This document shows, in pieces, positions 28,317-42,556 of a DNA stretch of 64,000 bases. Positions within the stretch are counted from its first letter, which is position 1. Every line of letters starts with the position of its first letter. This DNA comes from Polyangiaceae bacterium (GTDB lineage: Bacteria > Myxococcota_A > Polyangia > Polyangiales > Polyangiaceae), in NCBI GenBank assembly GCA_023150915.1, contig JAKLKA010000015.1, forward strand, positions 1 to 64,000, written 5' to 3'. The notes under the pieces were generated by a model. The model made no database searches. It worked only from the letters and a program-made list of their open reading frames with translations, and was not told the DNA's origin. Both the position numbers and the translations under genes were made by a program.

Positions 28317-29072
28317 TCAGAACCAGACTTCCCACTGGTTTGGCTCGACCTCGGCGGCGTGCGCGGTGACGCTGACGCGATCGCGACGGCCGCCGAACGG
28401 CTGGATCTGATGGAGCCGATAGCTGTCGAATACGCACAGTTCGCCCACGCCGTACTCAACCAGGGTGCTGGGCCTCTCTAGCTCGTCTGCCGTGGCTTCA
28501 TCGGCGCCCGAATGCAGCACGTCCCACAGCGCAATGCCCCCGCCGCGCTGCGGAGCATGCAGCATGAGCAGCAGCGAGAGCGCAGGCTTCTTCGCGCGCA
28601 CGTGCTCGTCCGTCAGCCCCTCGGTGTCGAAGTGCACGACACCCCCACGACGTGCCACCACCTCGCCGTTCGGGAACACGTGTACACCCGGGCCGCACCA
28701 CCCGGCGCGGACCGTGGCCGAGCCACCCGAGAGCGCCTGCACCGTGTCGAGCACGCGCTGCTGCATCCCCGGCAGCGTGGCCTCGACCAGGCGATTCGAG
28801 GCGGCGGCGTTCTCGAAGTAATCGTCCGACAGGTCCTCTTCGAGGTGGGTGTACCAGGCCCGGCCCAGGGAATACTGCTCGCCGCCGAAGGCCGGGGTCC
28901 AGTGCGCGCGCGCGCGATACACCGCGTTGGTCCAGGCGTGGCACTCTTCCCAGGGCGAGAACCCGGGGAAGCGCAGCGCGAAATGGCGGCTCACATCCGT
29001 GAGCAGGCGGTCACGATCTCCGGGCTCGGACGGCGGCCATGCGACTTCGCGCGGCATGTCGCTCGGGAGCAT
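28317..29072 (-). CDS. 2OG-Fe(II) oxygenase (prolyl-hydroxylase-like)
   Basis: 251 residues. The double-stranded beta-helix core (about 105-245) shows HFD (in VVHFDTEG) as the HxD motif, the distal His in YRLHQIQP and the 2-oxoglutarate-binding Arg in RRDRVSVTAH, plus a GGGIALWDV strand. The first 100 residues are helical and acidic. It is not closely related to the two paralogues at 23309 and 25484, so this is a third, separate oxygenase in 6 kb. It converges with the three-gene operon, with 3 bases between stop codons. ATG 29072 or the in-frame ATG at 29057. Confidence 0.85.
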   Translation of the reverse strand: MLPSDMPREVAWPPSEPGDRDRLLTDVSRHFALRFPGFSPWEECHAWTNAVYRARAHWTPAFGGEQYSLGRAWYTHLEEDLSDDYFENAAASNRLVEATLPGMQQRVLDTVQALSGGSATVRAGWCGPGVHVFPNGEVVARRGGVVHFDTEGLTDEHVRAKKPALSLLLMLHAPQRGGGIALWDVLHSGADEATADELERPSTLVEYGVGELCVFDSYRLHQIQPFGGRRDRVSVTAHAAEVEPNQWEVWF

Positions 29073-32692: not shown

Positions 32693-34042
32693 ATGCGCTG
32701 TCGCTGCGTGGCCGTGGCCGTCGCCTGGTCGTCGGCCGCCCTGGCTGAGCCGGTGGTCATCGACGCACCGGCGCCCGAGGTGCTGGTGCGCAGCGAGACC
32801 CACTTCCGGCTCTATCAGCGCGCGCTCGCGCCTGGGCCGAACGGCGCGCTCGTGACCGAAGAGACCGCGGCGCCCATCGTCGAATACGTGTCGCTCACCG
32901 CGCACGATCTCGATGGTCCGGGGCAGAAGCGAAGCCTCGACGTCGAGCTCGATGTCTGGGGAAGCGCCACCTTTGGCGAGGCCGGGGCGGGGCGCCGAAT
33001 GGACGGCGACGTGCAGAACGCCAACGTGCGCTATCGCAATGGCCCCGGTTGGCTGCGGCTGGGCCGCCAACACGTTGCCGGCGGCGCTGCCCGTTACGCA
33101 CGCTTCGACGGTGTGGCCGGTGGCGCAGCGCTTCCGCTGGGCCTGGGCGCCGATGCCTACGCGGGGCTCACGGTCTTGCCGCGCTGGGCGGCGCGACCGG
33201 GCTATCACCAGCTCGGCTCGGCGGCAGACTCCTTGTGGCGCGACCCAGCCGCGTTCCCCGAGCCGCGTCGCGCCGAGCACTGGCTGGCAGGTGGCCGCAT
33301 CCATTACGACTCACCCCGGCTCGACGTCGGCGCCTCGGTCCACGAGCAACGCGAGGCTGGCGGGCTCGCGTACCGGAACCTGGGCGCCGACGCGCGTTAC
33401 GATCCATCGCAGAAGGTCACGGTCGGCGGAACGGCGGTGCTGGAGCTCGACGCGCGACGCATGGCGGACGGCCGGCTGTGGGCCCACTACACCCCGCTTC
33501 TCGCCCTCGAGCTCGAGGCCGAGGTGTTGCACGCCGAGCCCGCGCTGTTTCTTTCGCGCCAGAGCGTGCTCGGAGTGTTCTCGACCGACGCCTACGAAGA
33601 GGCGGGTGGCAGCTTCCGCGCGAAGCTCTGGCGGCAGCTGACGCTGACTGGGTCGGGCTTCGTGCAGGTTCACTCGCGCGCCGACCTGGGGCAGCGCAGC
33701 GAGCTGGGCGCGCGCATCACCCCGGGCCACACTGATCGGACCGTGCTCCTGCTCTCGGTGGCGCGGGTCGACGCGTCGGAAAACGGCTATGTGTCCATGC
33801 GCAACGCCTGGCGCCAGCGCATCCAGCTCGATCTGCACGCCACGCTCGAGGCATACCACTACCGCTACGACGAGCCGATCGCGGGCTACGACACGTCCAG
33901 CGTTTATGCGGGCACCGTCGAGTGGCTGCTCTCGCGCCACCTCTCTGCCCTGTGGGGCGCGTCGTATGCGCGCACGCCCTACGCCGCGGCCGACGCGCAG
34001 ACCCAAGTTCGGCTTCGCTATGCCTCGGGGGGGGTGAGGTGA
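32693..34042 (+). CDS. Outer-membrane beta-barrel protein of a multihaem cytochrome operon
   Basis: 449 residues. Sec signal (cleavage near ALA-EP), then beta-strands alternating aromatic/polar residues across the whole length (RSLDVELDVWGSATF, WLRLGRQHVAGGAARYARFDG, LTVLPRWAARPGYHQLGS, LWAHYTPLLALELEAEVLH, LRYASG at the end). Predicted as a porin of perhaps 18-22 strands. It has no haem motif. Its TGA overlaps the GTG of the 12-haem lipoprotein gene, so barrel and cytochromes are made together, as in porin-cytochrome conduits (MtrB-like or Geobacter-type porins). ATG 32693; GTG 32684 is also possible. Confidence 0.82.
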   Translation: MRCRCVAVAVAWSSAALAEPVVIDAPAPEVLVRSETHFRLYQRALAPGPNGALVTEETAAPIVEYVSLTAHDLDGPGQKRSLDVELDVWGSATFGEAGAGRRMDGDVQNANVRYRNGPGWLRLGRQHVAGGAARYARFDGVAGGAALPLGLGADAYAGLTVLPRWAARPGYHQLGSAADSLWRDPAAFPEPRRAEHWLAGGRIHYDSPRLDVGASVHEQREAGGLAYRNLGADARYDPSQKVTVGGTAVLELDARRMADGRLWAHYTPLLALELEAEVLHAEPALFLSRQSVLGVFSTDAYEEAGGSFRAKLWRQLTLTGSGFVQVHSRADLGQRSELGARITPGHTDRTVLLLSVARVDASENGYVSMRNAWRQRIQLDLHATLEAYHYRYDEPIAGYDTSSVYAGTVEWLLSRHLSALWGASYARTPYAAADAQTQVRLRYASGGVR

Positions 34043-35064
34043 GGGGCCTGATGCTCGCGCTGGCGTGCGTCGCCGCTCTGGTCGCGGCGTGCGCCGACCG
34101 TGCGCCGAGCCGCTTTCCGCATGCGCGCCATCTGTCGGGGCTGCGCTGCGGTGGCCCGGGCCTCCCCGAGTGTCTGAGCTGCACCACCTGCCACAAGCTG
34201 ACTGCCACCCCGAAGCAGGTGTTCCCCGAGAAGCGACTGTGCACGCGCTGTCACCGCGGCGACGACCCGGAGATGCTGGCGGTGACGCCGCCCACGCACG
34301 TGCCGCCGCCGCTGGCGTACACCATCCGCTTCAGCCACCAGAAGCACCTCGCCATGCGTGACGTCAAAGGGCAGTGCGTGCCGTGTCATGCTGGCGCCAC
34401 CGAGCGCGACTCGGCGCTCTTCCCGGTGATGGAAAGCTGCTTTCAGTGTCACGAGCACCAGAAGCAGTGGGACCGTGCCGAGTGCGCGCCCTGTCACGAA
34501 AAGCGCGACCTCGAGCGGCTCTTGCCCCAGTCGTTCGCCAAGCACGACGCCGGCTTTCAGCGCAACCATGGGCAGGCCGCACGCCAGCAGCAGAAGCTCT
34601 GCCAGCAGTGTCACACGCAGCAGCATTGCGACGACTGCCACGACGCGAGCCAGGACCTCTCGGTGGAAAAGCGCCGGCCCGAGTCCATCGAGCGCAGCCT
34701 GGTGCACCGCGGTGACTTCGTCACGCGGCACGCCATCGAGGCGCAGTCCCAGCCCGCGCGCTGTGCCCGCTGTCACACGCCGGCCAGCTGCGACGGCTGC
34801 CACCTCGAACGCGGCGTGAGCGGTGGCCACAAGAACGGCCGGAACCCGCACCCGGCCGGCTGGATCACCGGCGCGCCGAGCGGGCACGGGCGCGACGCCC
34901 GGCGCGACATCTCGAGCTGCGCGGCCTGTCACGATCAGGGCCCGGCCACCAACTGCATCCGTTGCCACACCGTGGGTGCCTACGGTGGCAACCCTCACCC
35001 CAAAGGCTGGAAGAGCGCGCGCTCCGAGGGCTCGACCATGTGCAGGTACTGCCATGAGAATTGA
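34039..35064 (+). CDS. 12-haem c-type cytochrome lipoprotein
   Basis: 341 residues with twelve CxxCH haem-binding motifs (first CTTCH, last CRYCH) and many extra His for axial ligands, one haem per 28 residues. The N-terminal signal ends in LVAAC, so it is a lipoprotein. Coupled to the barrel gene by GTGA and overlapping the next cytochrome gene by 11 bases. Probably the periplasmic-side or barrel-embedded electron carrier of the conduit, like MtrA/OmaB in known systems, but not obviously homologous. GTG 34039 or ATG 34051. Confidence 0.93.
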   Translation: MRGLMLALACVAALVAACADRAPSRFPHARHLSGLRCGGPGLPECLSCTTCHKLTATPKQVFPEKRLCTRCHRGDDPEMLAVTPPTHVPPPLAYTIRFSHQKHLAMRDVKGQCVPCHAGATERDSALFPVMESCFQCHEHQKQWDRAECAPCHEKRDLERLLPQSFAKHDAGFQRNHGQAARQQQKLCQQCHTQQHCDDCHDASQDLSVEKRRPESIERSLVHRGDFVTRHAIEAQSQPARCARCHTPASCDGCHLERGVSGGHKNGRNPHPAGWITGAPSGHGRDARRDISSCAACHDQGPATNCIRCHTVGAYGGNPHPKGWKSARSEGSTMCRYCHEN

Positions 35065-36691
35065 CCTGAGGTGGGCGCTGCTCGTTCTGCTCGGCGCGGC
35101 GCTGGCGCCCAGCTGTCAGCGTCCGCGCGACGACCAGCGCCGGCAGAACGCTTCGTCGTGCAGCGCGTGCCATGGCGACGCCGCACGCGGCGGCAGCGAG
35201 CTCGAGCGGGCGGCGCCGCCCCGCGACCTGGCCGGCAACACCCTGCCCGCGCAGCCCGGGGTCGGCGCGCATCAAATCCATCTGCGCGCGGGCGCGACCC
35301 ACGGCCCCGTGGCGTGCAGCGAGTGCCATGTCGTTCCGGAAGAAACCGGCGACATTGGCCACGCCGACGACCCGCTGCCCGCCGAGGTGGCCTTCGGTGC
35401 TCGGGCCAAGCTGGGGAACCGGGCGCCCAGCTACGACCCCGCCAGCGGCCGTTGCACCGATTCGTACTGTCACCGGGGCTCCGACGCGGCGTGGACTCTG
35501 CCGCGCGCGTCCGACGCGGCGTGCGGCACCTGCCACGGGCTGCCCCCGCCGGCGCCGCACCCACAGCGGGACAGCTGCCACAGCTGCCACGGCGAGGTGA
35601 TGGGCCAGAGCGGCTTCGTGAACGCTGCCCTTCACGTCGATGGCAAGGTCCAGCTCGGCAACTTCGCCTGTGATGCGTGCCACGGAGGCGAGGGGGATCC
35701 CGCGCCGCCCCGCGATCTGGCCGGCAACACCGCGGTGAGCGCGCTCGGCGTCGGCGCCCATCGCGTTCACCTGGCCGGCGGGGCGGCTGGCCGGGCCGTG
35801 GCGTGTGGCGAGTGCCATCAGGTGCCCGCGCAGTACGGTGACCCTGGCCACGCAGACTCCGACTCGCCCGCCGAGGTGATGTTCTCGGGTGTGGCCCTCT
35901 CCAAGCTCCGGAGCCCCAGCTGGGATCGGCAGGCGCGCGTCTGCAGCGATGCGTGGTGCCACTCGCCCTCCGCAACCGCCGCGTCGCCCCCGTGGACCAG
36001 CGACGCAGGCCGGCTCCCCTGCACGGGTTGCCACGCCATGCCGCCGCCAGCACCGCACGTGCAGATGGCGGCCTGCGGGCGCTGTCATGGCGCGGTGGTG
36101 GGCGACGACCACGTGACCATCAAGGACCGCTCGAAGCACATCGACGGCAACGTCGACGTGGTCGTTCCCACCCAGTGCAACGGCTGCCATGGTGGCACGA
36201 ACGACGCGCCGCCCAGCGATCTCTCGGGCAGCGCGTCGACCACCTCGCCCGGCGTCGGTGCTCATCAGGCGCACCTGGCCGGCAGCGGGCGCGCGCGCGC
36301 CGTGCCCTGCGCCGAATGTCACGTGCTTCCCAAGGCCGTGAACGATCCCGGTCACCTCGACGGCGCGGCCTCCGCCGAGCTGGTGTTCGCAGGCGTTGCG
36401 CTGACCGCCGGCGCCAGCCCCAGCTACTCGAGTGGCACGTGCGGCAAGAGCTACTGCCACGGCGCGGCCTTCCCCGGCGGCGCCCCTTCCGGTGGCAAGC
36501 ACACCGCGCCCAAGTGGACCGTGGTCGACGGCAGCCAGACCGGCTGCGACGGCTGTCACGCCCTTCCACCCCCCGCGCCGCACATCCAGTCCTCGGCGTG
36601 TTGGTTCTGTCACGAGAACGTCGACTCGACGCTCAAGTTCCTGTTCCCCGACACCCACGTCGACGGCCTAGTGACCGGCGCCGTGCCGTGA
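35054..36691 (+). CDS. Multihaem c-type cytochrome lipoprotein with CxxxxCH modules (12+3 sites)
   Basis: 545 residues. Lipobox APSC near residue 21. There are twelve CxxCH motifs plus three CxxxxCH motifs (CTDSYCH, CSDAWCH, CGKSYCH). The protein is three to four copies of one module: ECHxVPxxxxDxGHxD...AEVxF, then CxxxxCH, then CxGCHxxPPPAPH, the GSu_C4xC__C2xCH type of module known from Geobacter outer-surface cytochromes. If all sites are filled it carries 15 haems. Probably the surface partner of the 12-haem protein and barrel. ATG 35054 lies inside the previous gene. Confidence 0.93.
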   Translation: MRIDLRWALLVLLGAALAPSCQRPRDDQRRQNASSCSACHGDAARGGSELERAAPPRDLAGNTLPAQPGVGAHQIHLRAGATHGPVACSECHVVPEETGDIGHADDPLPAEVAFGARAKLGNRAPSYDPASGRCTDSYCHRGSDAAWTLPRASDAACGTCHGLPPPAPHPQRDSCHSCHGEVMGQSGFVNAALHVDGKVQLGNFACDACHGGEGDPAPPRDLAGNTAVSALGVGAHRVHLAGGAAGRAVACGECHQVPAQYGDPGHADSDSPAEVMFSGVALSKLRSPSWDRQARVCSDAWCHSPSATAASPPWTSDAGRLPCTGCHAMPPPAPHVQMAACGRCHGAVVGDDHVTIKDRSKHIDGNVDVVVPTQCNGCHGGTNDAPPSDLSGSASTTSPGVGAHQAHLAGSGRARAVPCAECHVLPKAVNDPGHLDGAASAELVFAGVALTAGASPSYSSGTCGKSYCHGAAFPGGAPSGGKHTAPKWTVVDGSQTGCDGCHALPPPAPHIQSSACWFCHENVDSTLKFLFPDTHVDGLVTGAVP

Positions 36692-36692
36692 G

Positions 36693-37502
36693 TCACCGCA
36701 CGCTGACCGCGTCTTCGAGCAACGCGTCGTAGCGGTAGCCGGCGCCCAGATCCTTGTCGAGCACCAGCGTGCCCTCCAGCGTCACGGTCTGATCACGCGC
36801 CAGCTCTTCGGTGGTGGTCACGGTCAGGTCGTGGTTCTTCGCTTCTTCGCTGCCGGTGCCATCGCGCAAGTGCAAGAACGTCTTCCCCATGATGCCGCCG
36901 GTGAGCTTGACCACCGTGCCGCGCACGCGGACCTTCTTGCCCGAGAGCGCCTGCTTCTGAGCAAAGACCTCGGCAATGGTTCGTGCGGTCCCCCCGGTTG
37001 CCTTGCCCACGGCCGCGCTGGTGCTCGGCGCCGGCGCCGCGGGCGGGTGACCCGGGGGCAGTGCCGCGGTGGCCGGCGGGTGACCGGCGGGCAGCGGTCC
37101 GGCGGCCTGGCCGTCCACCAGCGAGCCGAAGTGGATCGAGGCGAAGACGCGACCGAGGGTCTTGCTCTCGAAGTTGCTCATCACCGTGTCCGAGCGGACG
37201 CGCACCAAGGCGCCGGCCTTCACGTTGGCGGTGGTGACCGCGACCCATTGCCCTTCGGACCCCGCGGCGCCCACCCGAATGTAGGTGTAGCCGGGCACGT
37301 CCAGCACCTCGAGCGCCGTGCCTTCGATCAGGCCGGCGGCCGCTGGCTCGGGCGACAGGTCGGGGAGTGGCGTGGCTGCGCGGGTCGACGCCGGCTCGGG
37401 CATCGGTCGATCCCTCCGGAAGCTCTCGCCGAACCACGCGTACCCACCCGCGGCCACGATCACCGCGCCCAGGACCCAACCCATTTTCATGTCGACAGCC
37501 AT
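36693..37502 (-). CDS. Membrane-anchored OB-fold-like protein beside multihaem cytochromes
   Basis: 269 residues. One N-terminal helix (about 8-24) anchors it. Residues about 55-115 (GTALEVLDVPGYTYIRVG, QWVAVTTANVKAGALV) and about 175-269 (KKVRVRGTVVKLTGGIMGKTFLHLRDGTG, TVTLEGTLVLDKDLG) both look like OB-type beta-barrels; the first resembles the NrfJ-like/GW-type domain often encoded with multihaem cytochromes. A Pro/Ala/His-rich linker with PAGHPPA repeats joins them and could bind metal. It starts 3 bases after the stop of the 27-haem gene with a good GAGGA site, so both are one operon. Possible role in haem or metal handling is inference. Confidence 0.8.
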   Translation of the reverse strand: MAVDMKMGWVLGAVIVAAGGYAWFGESFRRDRPMPEPASTRAATPLPDLSPEPAAAGLIEGTALEVLDVPGYTYIRVGAAGSEGQWVAVTTANVKAGALVRVRSDTVMSNFESKTLGRVFASIHFGSLVDGQAAGPLPAGHPPATAALPPGHPPAAPAPSTSAAVGKATGGTARTIAEVFAQKQALSGKKVRVRGTVVKLTGGIMGKTFLHLRDGTGSEEAKNHDLTVTTTEELARDQTVTLEGTLVLDKDLGAGYRYDALLEDAVSVR

Positions 37503-37505
37503 TCC

Positions 37506-39257
37506 TCAGCCGCCTTTGAACAGATGACACCCACTGCAACGCTCCGCTTCGGGGTGGTGTTTTTGCAGATTCGTGTGGCAAGCGCCACAGGCGGCGCGCT
37601 CGGGTCGCCGCTCGCCGTGGCCGGTGTGGCACTTGAGGCAGTCCCGGTGCCGCGCGTCGAGGTGCAGGCCCGCCAGGGAGCCTTGCTGGTGGCAACTGCC
37701 GCAAGCAGGGGGTTTTGCAACCCCGCCGGGGCCATGAGGCCGGTGGCACTTGGCACAGCTCCCGTCCACCTTCGCGTGGGGTGCCTTCTGCTGCGCCGCG
37801 TGGCACCGGGCGCAGCCCCCGGGCTTGTCGTCTCCGGTGTGCGCGTCGTGGCAAATCGTGCACTGCTTGTGGCCGGCGGGCGCCAGCTGGTGTTCCTGGG
37901 CATGGCAGCCATCGCAGCGCTTCTGCATCTTGGTGCTGTGCGGCTCGTGGCAGCGCTGGCAGTCCGCGTGGCCGCGGTTCACCTGCGCCGCGGGCTTCTC
38001 GTGGCAGCCCCCGCAAGGCTTCACCGGGCCGGGCTTGTGAGGCAGCCCCGCATGGCACTCGCCGCACTCGCGATGCCCCTCGCTCTGCAGGGTCAGCGAG
38101 ACCTGCTGGGTGTGACAGCGGGCGCAGGTGGCCGTGCTGGCTTTGTCCAGGGCAAAGCGGTGCGGCGCGTGGCACCCGGTGCACGCCACGCCCTTGGCGT
38201 GGAAGCCCTTGTCTCCCGGGGCCTCCGAGTGGCAGCTCGAGCAAGCGCGCGGCTTGGCCGCCACCGCGTTGCCGGGGTGCGGGTCGTGGCACGAGGTGCA
38301 GGGCGACGCTCTTCCTTTGGCCTTGGGGTGGTCGGTCTTGCCCGCGCCGTGGCAGCCGATGCACGCTCTGCTCGGATCGGCCTTCACGTCGTGCGGGCGA
38401 TGGCACGAGTTGCAAGCCGCGTGCTGCGCAATGCGTCCGCCGCCCAGCACGGGGCGGTCTTCGTGGCACGACCGGCAGCTGACCACGTTCTCGCGCCGGA
38501 AGTCGTGGGGGCGGTGGCATCCGGTGCAGGTGTCGTGTCCGCCGGAGAAGGTGGCGCTGGCCGGCACGAGGGGCTTCTGTTCGGCGTGGCACTTGGCGCA
38601 CTGCAGGTTGGCGGCCTTGCCCAAGGCGTGCTGCGACACGTGACAGGTGGTGCACACCCGCTCGGGCGACTTGCCCTCCGTGGCATGGGTTGCGTTCACC
38701 CCGCCGTGGCACGCCGGGCAGCTGGTCTGCTCGACGGGCGGCTTGGCGTGCGGCTCGTGGCAGCTGCGGCAGGCCTGCGAGCGGTGAACGACCACCGCCG
38801 GCGCGTCATCGGCCGGCGCTTCGCCATGGCAGCGCTGGCACTCCCAAGCGGTCGGCGCCGCCTTCGGATCCTCGCCGGGCTCGAGGCTGAACGCATGGCA
38901 ATCCAGGCAGCTGGCGCCCGCCAGCGCCCCATGCGCTTCTTTGGCCTTGCTCGCAGCGTGGACGATCTCTGCCTCGCCGGCGTGACACTCCGTGCACCGC
39001 TCTTGCCGCACACCGCCGAGCTCTCCCCGTTCGAGCTCGTGGCACTTGCTGCACTCGATCTTGCGCTTGCCCACGTGGCTCTGGTGGCTCTTCACCCGGC
39101 GGGCCTGGGCCCATTCGACGGGGATCTTGATGCCGCGGGGGTCGTCGCTGCCGCCGTCGGCACAGGCCCACGAGAGCGCGGCCGCGATGACGAGCAGGAC
39201 CCCGCTCCATCCGCGCCATGCAAACTCTGCGCATGATCGCCGCTGCTCCGAGCTCAT
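37506..39257 (-). CDS. 27-haem c-type cytochrome lipoprotein
   Basis: 583 residues with 27 CxxCH motifs, one every 19-20 residues of the mature chain, from CSKCH to CSGCH; nearly the whole protein is haem-binding. Many motifs sit in repeats of the form CxxCHxPHxxxxxxxxCxxCH. The signal has lipobox SWAC. With so many haems it should act as a nanowire-like conductor along the periplasm or at the surface. ATG 39257 is preferred because it precedes the signal helix; the frame is open a little further. It shares a 56-base divergent promoter region with the NapC-like gene. Confidence 0.93.
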   Translation of the reverse strand: MSSEQRRSCAEFAWRGWSGVLLVIAAALSWACADGGSDDPRGIKIPVEWAQARRVKSHQSHVGKRKIECSKCHELERGELGGVRQERCTECHAGEAEIVHAASKAKEAHGALAGASCLDCHAFSLEPGEDPKAAPTAWECQRCHGEAPADDAPAVVVHRSQACRSCHEPHAKPPVEQTSCPACHGGVNATHATEGKSPERVCTTCHVSQHALGKAANLQCAKCHAEQKPLVPASATFSGGHDTCTGCHRPHDFRRENVVSCRSCHEDRPVLGGGRIAQHAACNSCHRPHDVKADPSRACIGCHGAGKTDHPKAKGRASPCTSCHDPHPGNAVAAKPRACSSCHSEAPGDKGFHAKGVACTGCHAPHRFALDKASTATCARCHTQQVSLTLQSEGHRECGECHAGLPHKPGPVKPCGGCHEKPAAQVNRGHADCQRCHEPHSTKMQKRCDGCHAQEHQLAPAGHKQCTICHDAHTGDDKPGGCARCHAAQQKAPHAKVDGSCAKCHRPHGPGGVAKPPACGSCHQQGSLAGLHLDARHRDCLKCHTGHGERRPERAACGACHTNLQKHHPEAERCSGCHLFKGG

Positions 39258-39313
39258 GAGCAGTCGCGGAGATTGCCCCAGCCGAGCCGAAATGACAAAG
39301 AGGACACCGCGCA

Positions 39314-40015
39314 GTGCTGTCACACGTCACTCCCGTTGGGTATCTCTGCTTGGTCGCGGCCCTGGGCTCCGCCGCGATCGTGATCTGGTATCTGGTGAAG
39401 AAGCCCGCGCTGGGGGTCACCACCAAGCTCACGCTGCTCTTCGGAGTGGGCGTCCTTCCGGCCACCGTGGCCATCGCATCGACCACCCTCGGGATGCAAG
39501 AGACGACCGAGCGCAGATTCTGCGGGTCGTGTCACGTGATGCAAGGGCACACCTGGAACGCCGAGCAGGCCGCGAGCGACTCGCTGGCGGCCCGTCACGC
39601 GCGCAACCCGTTCTTCGGGGCTCGCAACTGCTACGTCTGCCACGCCGACTACGGAATGCTCGGTTACCCGATGACCAAGCTGAACGGCATGAAGCACGTG
39701 TGGCACTACTACTTCGGCGGGTACAAGGACAAGCCGCTCGACCGCGCCATCGACGAAATCGACCTCTACAAGGCCTATGACAACGTCAACTGCCGGCAGT
39801 GCCACTCGGGCACGCTGACTCACTTCAAGAGCATCTCGGATCACCAGTCGCTGGAGAAAGAGCTCAGCAAGAACGAAGTCAGCTGTACCAGCGGCGGGTG
39901 TCACGGCTTTGCCCACCCCTTCAGCAAGTTCGGCAAGAAGGCGCCGAAGCCGAGCACGGTGAAGCCGCCGAGCGCGACCAGCGCGGCACCGCCCGCGTCG
40001 GGAGGGGCGCCGTGA
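39314..40015 (+). CDS. NapC/NrfH-like tetrahaem quinol dehydrogenase
   Basis: 233 residues. Two N-terminal membrane helices (about 8-28 and 40-60) are followed by CGSCHVM, CYVCH, CRQCH and a fourth site CTSGGCH that has a CxxxxCH spacing in place of CxxCH. CxxCHxM after the anchor is typical of the NapC/NirT/NrfH family, where Met ligates the first haem. It should take electrons from menaquinol in the inner membrane and pass them to periplasmic multihaem proteins (the CymA role). The C-terminus is Pro/Ser/Ala-rich. GTG 39314; its stop overlaps the next start (GTGA). Confidence 0.9.
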   Translation: MLSHVTPVGYLCLVAALGSAAIVIWYLVKKPALGVTTKLTLLFGVGVLPATVAIASTTLGMQETTERRFCGSCHVMQGHTWNAEQAASDSLAARHARNPFFGARNCYVCHADYGMLGYPMTKLNGMKHVWHYYFGGYKDKPLDRAIDEIDLYKAYDNVNCRQCHSGTLTHFKSISDHQSLEKELSKNEVSCTSGGCHGFAHPFSKFGKKAPKPSTVKPPSATSAAPPASGGAP

Positions 40016-40296
40016 GCCTGCGCAGCGTTCTGGCGCGGCTGCCGCAGGGGCTCTTGCTGCGCACCGCGTGTTACACGGTGCTCGCGGCGCTGGCGGTCAT
40101 GAGCTACTCGATCGTCGTCCCCAAGCCGCTTCCGGTCATCGCCGCGATGAGCATCGGCCACGTGCTGTGCGTCATCGGTTTCGTGTGTTTCGGGTTGGCC
40201 GTGCTGATCGAGATGGCGACGCGCCCTGGCGCCCGAGGCTCGCTCCCGCCAACGTCGAAGCCGGCCCCGCGCTCGGAGCCGGCTTCGAAGGCCTGA
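40012..40296 (+). CDS. Small two-helix membrane protein coupled to the tetrahaem cytochrome
   Basis: 94 residues with two membrane helices (about 18-36 and 42-66), an Arg-rich N-terminus and a Pro/Ser-rich tail. GTG 40012 overlaps the TGA of the NapC-like gene, so the pair is translationally coupled. No family recognised. A His in the second helix (IGHVLCVIG) could be a quinone- or haem-site residue, but this is speculation. Likely a membrane subunit or stabiliser of the quinol dehydrogenase. Confidence 0.78.
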   Translation: MSLRSVLARLPQGLLLRTACYTVLAALAVMSYSIVVPKPLPVIAAMSIGHVLCVIGFVCFGLAVLIEMATRPGARGSLPPTSKPAPRSEPASKA

Positions 40297-40307
40297 GCGG
40301 CCAGGCG

Positions 40308-42395
40308 CTACTGCGCGAACGGGTGGCAGCTGCCGCACGCGTCGGTGTGCGGGATGGGCATCATGTCGGCGGCCTTGGTCGCGATGTCAGCCTTCCTGGG
40401 CACCTCGAACAGGTGGCTCGAGATGTCGCCGTGATAGTACGTGATCCCGCTCACCGACAGGCCGGGGAGGCCCGAGCCGGACTTCGCGGTCTTGGGCATG
40501 TGGCACGACACGCACTTGGTGCTGGCCTTGGGCACATCGGGGATGAAGTACTTCTTGTAGTGGGCGCGCATGCGGTCGCTGAAGGTGGCGCCCGTCGGGA
40601 AGGTGGCCCCGTGGCAGCTCATGCACTGGCCTTCGCCGGTGGCCGTGTTGTCTTCTTTGCCCCGCAGCTGGTGGTTCTCTTCCGTCTTGCCGTGCGCGTC
40701 GTGGCACGAGGCGCAGGTGACCAGCTGCGTGCCATTGCGGTACTTGCCCGACCGGATGAAGTCCGACGCCTGCTGGTGGTGCTTCTTCGAGTGCTTGCCG
40801 TCGCCCTTCACCGCGTCCCACAGGCCCTCGTCGAACTTCGACACGTGGTTCGCCAAGAAGGTGGCCCGTGACGAGCCGGCCACCAGCATGCGGCCGCTGG
40901 CGTCCATCGGTGTTTCTGTGTTCCCACCGCCCACGCCCAGCGGGCGGCTGTGGCACTGCGTGCAGATGGCCACCTCGCGCTCGGGCGTGAGCAAGTTCGG
41001 GCTCACCACCGCTCTGCCCTGACCGGCCCACTCCCAGTGCTCCGAGCCCGGCCCGTGGCAGGTCTCGCAGCCCATGTTGAGCTGTTCGAGTTGACCGTCT
41101 CCGTCGAAGTCCATCTCGCCCTTTTCATCGGGCACGCCGTGGGCGGCAAAGCCGGCGGTCGCGTTGCCCGTCAGCTTGAACCCGGTCATGTGACAACCGG
41201 CGCAGTTGTTGTCGAAGCTCTTGGTCTTGGCCGGCTCTTTCAGGCTCTTGGTGGCCTCGTCGTACCAGTTCTGAGCGTTGTAGTGCTGCCAGACCCAGCG
41301 CGCGTAGGGGTGCGACGCCTCGGCGGTCTGGCCCTGGAAGTTGAACTGCAGCGGCATGACGTACCAGCTGGGACCGATCTTGGTCAGGTAGCGCTGCTTG
41401 TAGAGCCCGCCACCATAGCTGATGCGCGTCTCGTAGGTCTTGGTCGCGGCCGTGCCCGCGACGTTCGTCAGATCGACGTAGTACTTGCCGGCGCTCGAGT
41501 AGAGCTTGATCGTGAAGCTCACCCCCGAGCCCGGGTTGGTCTCCGAAGCCTTCCAGTCGGGCGACGCCGAGTTGCCGTTGTAACCGTAGACGTAGATGGT
41601 GGTGCCTGCGGCCGTGAACTTGGTGTCGAGGGGTTTGTTCCAGTCGGCGAATCGGCTGTAGTTCTGGAGCCCGCCGGTCTGACCCATCACCCGCAGGCCC
41701 AGTGCGTGCAGCGTCTGCTTCTGATGGGTGACGCCGTGGCACGAGAGGCACACGCTGGTGCCGACGTATTCGGCCTTGGCGCTGGGCTTGGTGGAAAGAT
41801 CGATGTTCCACTGCTTGCCGACCAGTGCGGTCGACGCCGACGCCGTCCGGCACATGCTGCCGCCGGGCAGGTGACCGTCGTCGGTCTTGGCCGGCACCAC
41901 CGTCACGAAGTAGCTGCCCGCCGGCACGGTGGGGATCCGGTAGACCCCGTCGACATCCGTGACCGCCTGCACGTAGCCGGTGCCCTTGGTCGCGATGGGA
42001 TCTTCGAGCGGCTCGTCGATGGTACTGGTCTTCTCGACCGTGATGTCCTTCGGCTCCAGCGCGGCGGTGGGGATGTCGGCGCTCGGCACCAGGTAGACCG
42101 TGGCGCCCACCACCGGCTTGTCGGCGGTGTCTTTCACGAAGCCCACAATCCCGGCGGCTTCGAGCGCCAGGTAGCCCTGGCCCGGCTGGCCTGGCGGGCC
42201 CGCCTCGCCGGCCGGCCCGGGGTCGCCCACCGACCCATCCACGCCGTTCTGCCCCGGCTGCCCGGGCGCGCCGTCGGCACCGTTCACCCCATCCTTCCCG
42301 TTCTTGCCATCCGCCCCGTCTCCCCCGCAACCCGCAGCTACGGCAAACGTGCCCGCCACCAACCACCCGACAATCGAGGAACGGCGAATCGACAT
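40308..42395 (-). CDS. 8-haem cytochrome lipoprotein with collagen-like stalk
   Basis: 695 residues. After the lipobox (AAGC, about residue 23) comes a collagen-like Gly-X-Y tract (about 26-73: GKNGKDGVNGADG, GEAGPPGQPGQG), then a carboxypeptidase-regulatory-like beta-sandwich (about 82-185; VYRIPTVPAGSYFVTVVP). The rest is a multihaem region with eight CxxCH motifs: CLSCH, CAGCH, CETCH (with HGPGSEHW), CTQCH, CASCH, CMSCH, CVSCH and CGSCH. The CETCHGPGSEH segment is typical of octahaem-type oxidoreductase cytochromes, so it may be an enzyme and not only a carrier. A GGAGG ribosome site lies 6 bases before ATG 42395. The stalk would hold the haem domain off the membrane. Confidence 0.92.
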   Translation of the reverse strand: MSIRRSSIVGWLVAGTFAVAAGCGGDGADGKNGKDGVNGADGAPGQPGQNGVDGSVGDPGPAGEAGPPGQPGQGYLALEAAGIVGFVKDTADKPVVGATVYLVPSADIPTAALEPKDITVEKTSTIDEPLEDPIATKGTGYVQAVTDVDGVYRIPTVPAGSYFVTVVPAKTDDGHLPGGSMCRTASASTALVGKQWNIDLSTKPSAKAEYVGTSVCLSCHGVTHQKQTLHALGLRVMGQTGGLQNYSRFADWNKPLDTKFTAAGTTIYVYGYNGNSASPDWKASETNPGSGVSFTIKLYSSAGKYYVDLTNVAGTAATKTYETRISYGGGLYKQRYLTKIGPSWYVMPLQFNFQGQTAEASHPYARWVWQHYNAQNWYDEATKSLKEPAKTKSFDNNCAGCHMTGFKLTGNATAGFAAHGVPDEKGEMDFDGDGQLEQLNMGCETCHGPGSEHWEWAGQGRAVVSPNLLTPEREVAICTQCHSRPLGVGGGNTETPMDASGRMLVAGSSRATFLANHVSKFDEGLWDAVKGDGKHSKKHHQQASDFIRSGKYRNGTQLVTCASCHDAHGKTEENHQLRGKEDNTATGEGQCMSCHGATFPTGATFSDRMRAHYKKYFIPDVPKASTKCVSCHMPKTAKSGSGLPGLSVSGITYYHGDISSHLFEVPRKADIATKAADMMPIPHTDACGSCHPFAQ

Positions 42396-42556
42396 AGTGA
42401 GTCCTCCGGAGACTTCAGCCCGCGCTCGCGGCTGCAAGGCGCGTACCGATAGCGCATTCCGCAGTTCTTCGGGGCTGACTTCCGCGAAATCTGCGTCCGC
42501 CGGGCCTCTGCCGGTCGGGCTTGCGCGCGCCGTGGTACGCTCGGCGCGAGGGCTTC

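Follow-up and report, generated by a model that had tools for sequence, protein, structure and literature searches.

The DNA analysed here is a 64-kb window (positions 1 to 64,000 of contig JAKLKA010000015.1, assembly GCA_023150915.1) from a Polyangiaceae bacterium, an 8.0-Mb Myxococcota genome in 295 contigs that is 98.8% complete. Between 32693 and 42398 it contains an island of multihaem cytochrome genes around a predicted outer-membrane barrel, which we read as a genuine, conserved porin-cytochrome conduit (Pcc) with an unusually complete upstream chain. The barrel, c12 and c15 lie on the plus strand, followed by an OB-like protein and c27 on the minus strand, a NapC-type protein and a small membrane protein on the plus strand, and c8 on the minus strand:

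32693-34042, plus strand: outer-membrane beta-barrel of 449 aa with signal peptide (AlphaFold2 model, DSSP)
34039-35064, plus strand: c12, 12-haem c-type cytochrome lipoprotein and proposed filler of the barrel (12 CxxCH, 15 free His, lipobox; open frame 33736-35064)
35054-36691, plus strand: c15, cytochrome with 12 CxxCH and 3 CxxxxCH sites, probable surface lipoprotein (TIGR01904, repeats; open frame 34820-36691)
36693-37502, minus strand: membrane-anchored OB-fold-like protein (OB assignment by inspection)
37506-39254, minus strand: c27, 27-haem probable lipoprotein (27 CxxCH, lipobox-like signal; open frame 37506-39326)
39314-40015, plus strand: NapC/NrfH-type membrane quinol dehydrogenase (PF03264; 3 CxxCH and 1 CxxxxCH; open frame 39296-40015)
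40012-40296, plus strand: small membrane protein with two hydrophobic segments or helices (GTGA overlap with the NapC gene at 40012-40015)
40308-42398, minus strand: c8, 8-haem lipoprotein (8 CxxCH, DmsE/GSU2203-like haem region, collagen-like stretch; open frame 40308-42554)

In a six-frame count of the window, the five cytochrome frames alone carry two or more CxxCH sites, and together they hold 62 CxxCH and 4 CxxxxCH sites, exactly the numbers and places given in a preliminary description of the sequence made by a model. Shuffling the residues of each cytochrome 2000 times gave a mean of 0.01-0.5 CxxCH sites and a maximum of 4, so the observed counts are far from chance, and the frames show the high third-position GC of real genes in the host genome. 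Two frames shadowing c27 (36831-39236, plus, 801 aa; 36793-38712, minus, 639 aa) were dismissed by codon-position GC. Free histidines outnumber haem sites in c12 (15 to 12), c15 (19 to 15) and c27 (30 to 27), a surplus that, judged from the residue counts, is enough for bis-His ligation. No catalytic CxxCK site occurs in any island cytochrome. The genes are also tightly coupled, as the preliminary description had noted: the barrel stop codon (34040-34042) overlaps the GTG start of c12 at 34039 in a GTGA, or lies 8 nt from an alternative ATG at 34051, and the ATG of c15 at 35054 falls within the end of c12.

The barrel matched nothing in Pfam, NCBIfam or the sequences of the PDB. Its AlphaFold2 model, built from an alignment of 56 sequences including homologues from public genomes, is confident (mean predicted local distance difference test score, pLDDT, 89.8; predicted template modelling score, pTM, 0.84) and has 22 predicted strands by DSSP, with nearly all of its 431 residues in the barrel and no plug domain. 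The closest solved folds are the 22-strand barrels of TonB-dependent receptors (Z about 20 over 352-370 residues, 3.7-4.5 Å), at about 10% identity (8-12%); Foldseek and VIA-align of the model listed importers, ushers and porins, and MtrB was not among the matches listed, which excludes nothing. That the best structural matches are import receptors is the main attraction of a reading in which the barrel and its cytochrome handle haem or metal, for storage, detoxification or import, and do not conduct electrons. We consider this highly improbable, since matches at such low identity are in keeping with a common number of strands, the barrel has no room for a plug and shows none in the model, and the bis-His haem stoichiometry suits electron transfer. 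As modelled, the plugless 22-strand barrel could well ensheathe a rod of haems, and the rod that we infer to lie inside it is c12.

Almost all of the haem cysteines of c12, and many of its ligand-type histidines, are invariant among 53 sequences, and its lipobox cysteine (LVAAC in the window) is kept in 32 of the 32 sequences compared. The nearest solved structure in a profile search is the 12-haem GSU1996 of Geobacter (3ov0, 100 bits), followed by other multihaem proteins; MtrA (6r2q_A) scores 33.5 bits (2e-7), the same level as other multihaem proteins. A PF14522 search of the host genome misses both c12 and c27 themselves. The neighbouring c15 has a TIGR01904 CxxxxCH/CxxCH domain (100.6 bits) and, by repeat alignment, consists of three tandem 5-haem units, each with four CxxCH and one CxxxxCH, that share the motifs GVGAH..HL and PPPAPH. 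Most c15 homologues with intact N-termini have a lipobox-like cysteine; that of the window (LAPSC) is non-canonical, and a position on the cell surface is probable. Homologues have as few as 4+1 and as many as 28+8 or 34+2 sites (CxxCH plus CxxxxCH), so the outward cytochrome appears, by sequence, to gain and lose complete units. Relatives with 28 CxxCH and 8 CxxxxCH, in frames of about 1300-1640 aa, lie directly before the barrel at loci L099, L100, L117 and L142; those with 34 and 2 sites are at L146, L166, L168 and L177.

Conservation of this arrangement is the second support for the porin-cytochrome reading, which the preliminary description had proposed and which the confident 22-strand model and a near-obligate linkage of barrels to 12- to 13-haem cytochromes across the phylum now bear out. 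A barrel search matched 29 of 144 genomes of the class, and nearly all class loci read have an 11- to 14-haem frame beside the barrel; in the exceptions the locus is truncated, either by a contig end or by the limits of the stretch retrieved. Among 282 Myxococcota genomes 90 matched, and 80 further barrel matches were read with their flanks: a cytochrome of at least 10 haems adjoins the barrel in 69, and 3 stand at a contig edge. In the remaining 8, the cytochrome beside the barrel is cut short (L157, L231), a 13-haem frame is present with the barrel frame under threshold (L211, L214, L230), or other multihaem frames lie near the barrel (L221, L232), leaving L217 alone without a nearby multihaem frame. 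At L217 (G153:C35, 5998-7305, minus strand), a barrel-like match has no multihaem gene within about 6 kb on either side. Barrels apart from cytochromes, which the preliminary description had named as evidence against a conduit, thus amount to one clear exception in 80 matches.

Searching from the cytochrome side gives the same picture. A c12-seeded scan of named genomes found 78 loci, nearly all in Myxococcota; distant members belong to Zixibacteria, Ignavibacteria and Omnitrophota. Among the 38 loci well flanked (5 kb upstream and 3 kb downstream), the barrel is present in all 38 and a c15-like gene in 32. The usual order is barrel-c12-c15 in the clade of the window and c15-barrel-c13 in most other clades. 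In the c12 tree the window falls in a 20-row clade (support 100/99) with metagenome-assembled genomes named by their submitters as Polyangiaceae, Archangium and Myxococcus, apart from the Anaeromyxobacter clade, and most well-flanked members of its clade carry a c27-type gene. The distribution of the barrel is patchy inside the window's own family, so gain or loss must be frequent.

The upstream half of the chain begins with the NapC-type protein, which scores 55.4 bits against PF03264 (cut-off 24.1), matches NrfH (2j7a) at E 2.8e-6 and has four haem sites, which confirms the quinol dehydrogenase assignment first made from sequence. Its overlapping partner, the small membrane protein, was passed over in the preliminary description, as was the OB-fold-like protein. 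In c27 the haems follow one another at even intervals of 15-29 residues (21.6 residues per haem), and the three-haem period of tandem triheme c7 domains was not seen in this spacing; homologues adjoining the module have 19-34 haems. The module, NapC gene, small membrane protein gene and a c27-type gene for 19-34 haems occur together at 21 loci in several families: the window, L139, L051, L053, L054, L057, L059, L060, L061, L065, L066, L147, L148, L152, L159, L162, L163, L171, L174, L175 and L180. These include Archangium-, Myxococcus- and Polyangiaceae-type genomes, and next to the NapC gene a small membrane protein homologue is encoded in all 20 loci other than the window.

This linkage bears on a reading in which the NapC-type protein and c27 work for periplasmic reductases, NrfA among them, or act as an electron store, beside an outer-membrane conduit of separate function. 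The host genome does encode an NrfA (202 bits) with no NrfH adjacent, the island NapC-type protein is the genome's only phmmer match, and a role as charge-storing capacitors has been proposed for Geobacter multihaem nanowires such as GSU1996 (PMC10138318). We nevertheless regard this division of labour as unlikely, given that 21 loci combine the conduit with a NapC gene, a small membrane protein gene and a c27-type gene and that the island lacks NrfA. The NrfA-type protein (L137; G000:C237, 7767-9581, plus strand; PF02335) is lipoprotein-like with an extra N-terminal haem region. Since it lies on another contig and CxxCK is absent from the island cytochromes, nitrite respiration is unlikely to be the purpose of the island, and the periplasmic nitrogen or sulfur respiration that the preliminary description had set against a conduit is unsupported; it is possible that the NapC-type protein also serves NrfA.

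The genes, haem sites, lipoboxes, predicted barrel fold, gene coupling and conserved co-occurrence are observed, and they lead us to favour, at roughly three chances in four, a self-contained path by which electrons would travel from the quinone pool to the cell surface. At the inner membrane, menaquinol would be oxidised by the NapC-type protein together with the small membrane protein; the c27 lipoprotein would take electrons through the periplasm; c12, sheathed by the plugless 22-strand barrel, would carry them across the outer membrane; and c15, perhaps also the 8-haem stalked c8, would pass them on to an acceptor outside the cell. How c12 sits in the barrel, in which order the components act, the outward direction and the acceptor are our reconstruction, and candidate acceptors may be Fe or Mn oxides, humics, an electrode or another cell. 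Several points weigh against this path. The c12 model is weak (pLDDT 74.6, pTM 0.37), and a search with it against the PDB gave no fold. Moreover, c12 carries a lipobox, while published Pcc partners are described as periplasmic. Finally, in the genome G111, from the same genus, a 33-haem cytochrome accompanies the module, and no NapC gene was found in the 20 kb read around its module, so the chain is not fixed.

The direction of flow is not fixed by sequence, and outward flow appears most likely. NapC/NrfH-type proteins usually oxidise quinol, as established for NapC, NrfH and CymA, and a large outer cytochrome such as c15 is typical of reducers. Both features tell against a conduit run inward, with electrons from Fe(II), a mineral, an electrode or a partner cell reaching the quinone pool or a periplasmic reductase, which we think quite improbable, even if conduit anatomy does not set direction and Fe(II)-oxidising Mtr-type systems include two-gene barrel and cytochrome sets without an outer cytochrome (PMC4245776).

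Of the remaining island genes, c8 matches PF01391 at the cut-off and NF041028 (46 bits) and TIGR03508 (39.8 bits) below theirs, and has homologues near the module in other families (E down to 1e-152). Its collagen-like Gly-X-Y stretch sits between the lipobox and the haem region and is perhaps a stalk. The OB-fold-like protein at 36693-37502 has no Pfam match, and its homologues adjoin the module in several relatives. Elsewhere in the same genome, L134 (G000:C177, 7423-9084 and 8808-10367, both minus strand) is a second, divergent pair of barrel and 13-haem cytochrome that, judged by its signal peptide, is not lipidated; a pair of this type also occurs in G111 (L138), and similar weakly matching barrel/13-haem pairs are present in many other Myxococcota genomes. 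L135 (G000:C173, 339-3308, minus strand) encodes a 989-aa, 10-haem lipoprotein with a collagen-like stretch that by inspection resembles OmcA/MtrC-type surface cytochromes. Within the window, positions 28317-29072 weakly match WelO5-type 2-oxoglutarate halogenase/oxygenase profiles, under the cut-off.

What is new here is the set of genes that accompanies the module, for a NapC-type quinol dehydrogenase, a 19- to 34-haem cytochrome and a conserved small membrane protein. Such conduits are known from iron-breathing bacteria, and a fuller version is found in many myxobacteria not known to respire minerals: a homologous barrel is present in about a third of the sampled Myxococcota genomes, and at least 21 loci encode the whole putative quinol-to-surface chain in one island. 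If functional, it would make mineral or interspecies respiration far commoner among soil and sludge myxobacteria than usually assumed. In that case the island would also offer a compact set of parts in which to ask, with a single 27-haem protein, how electrons cross the periplasm. By analogy with GSU1996, reported in a title in the reference list of PMC10138318 as 12 nm long for 12 haems, a linear c27 could extend over about 27 nm, close to the width of a periplasm. We tentatively raise the possibility, which we hold to be doubtful, of a distinct class of chain, where a single lipidated polypeptide bearing 19-34 haems would span the periplasm in place of soluble shuttle cytochromes, the NapC/small-membrane-protein dehydrogenase would be joined directly to a 22-strand conduit, and many supposedly aerobic, predatory myxobacteria would thereby gain mineral or interspecies respiration.

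Compared with known systems, the island is of the Pcc kind and not of the MtrCAB kind. The features of a Pcc are present in turn: 22 predicted strands where about 18-22 are usual, an adjacent multihaem cytochrome of the periplasmic-side type (5-14 haems) in c12, with its linkage conserved, and the usual outer-membrane cytochrome in c15, with 15 sites and a probable surface placement. Like MtrCAB of Shewanella it would pair a sheathed multihaem cytochrome with a surface cytochrome, but MtrB has 26-28 strands against 22 and MtrA 10 haems against the 12 of c12, and no MtrB/PioB profile matched the barrel (Pfam and NCBIfam at E 0.01; PDB profile search), in agreement with the early judgement that the proteins are not obviously MtrABC. 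NapC and NrfH proper have an adjacent nitrate or nitrite reductase gene, whereas the island has none and NrfA lies on contig C237. In having many haems on one chain c27 resembles GSU1996 (12 haems) and GSU2210 (27 haems, the number of c27) (PMC10138318), but GSU1996 is built of triheme domains, whereas c27 has evenly spaced haems and a lipobox-like signal. The OmbB-OmaB-OmcB and ExtABCD/ExtEFG clusters of Geobacter sulfurreducens, compared here by description only, likewise combine an 18- to 22-strand barrel, a periplasmic cytochrome (12 haems in ExtA and ExtG, 8 in OmaB) and an outward lipoprotein cytochrome, and the outer cytochromes of Pcc systems often have atypical CX3-4CH sites (PMC6148476, PMC4245776); as described, these clusters have no NapC gene. 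In the literature searched, Myxococcota porin-cytochrome clusters receive passing mentions only, and the published ones found concern Anaeromyxobacter alone, a genus that reduces Fe(III). Its group IV cluster consists of two genes, barrel and cytochrome (Shi et al. 2014), and the Pcc partners of Anaeromyxobacter and Kuenenia have 12 or 14 haems in 338-344 aa (PMC4245776). One 12-haem c12 homologue (E < 1e-20) stands beside a barrel in nine of nine Anaeromyxobacter genomes searched, with 344 aa in three, and from size and copy number we take these loci to be the published cluster. The suggestion that the island is a distinct conduit therefore holds in part: its barrel and c12 are homologous to the single-copy Anaeromyxobacter pair with its partner of about 340 aa, whereas c12 belongs to a separate, well-supported clade and the wider island differs in adding c15, the NapC-type protein, the small membrane protein, c27 and c8.

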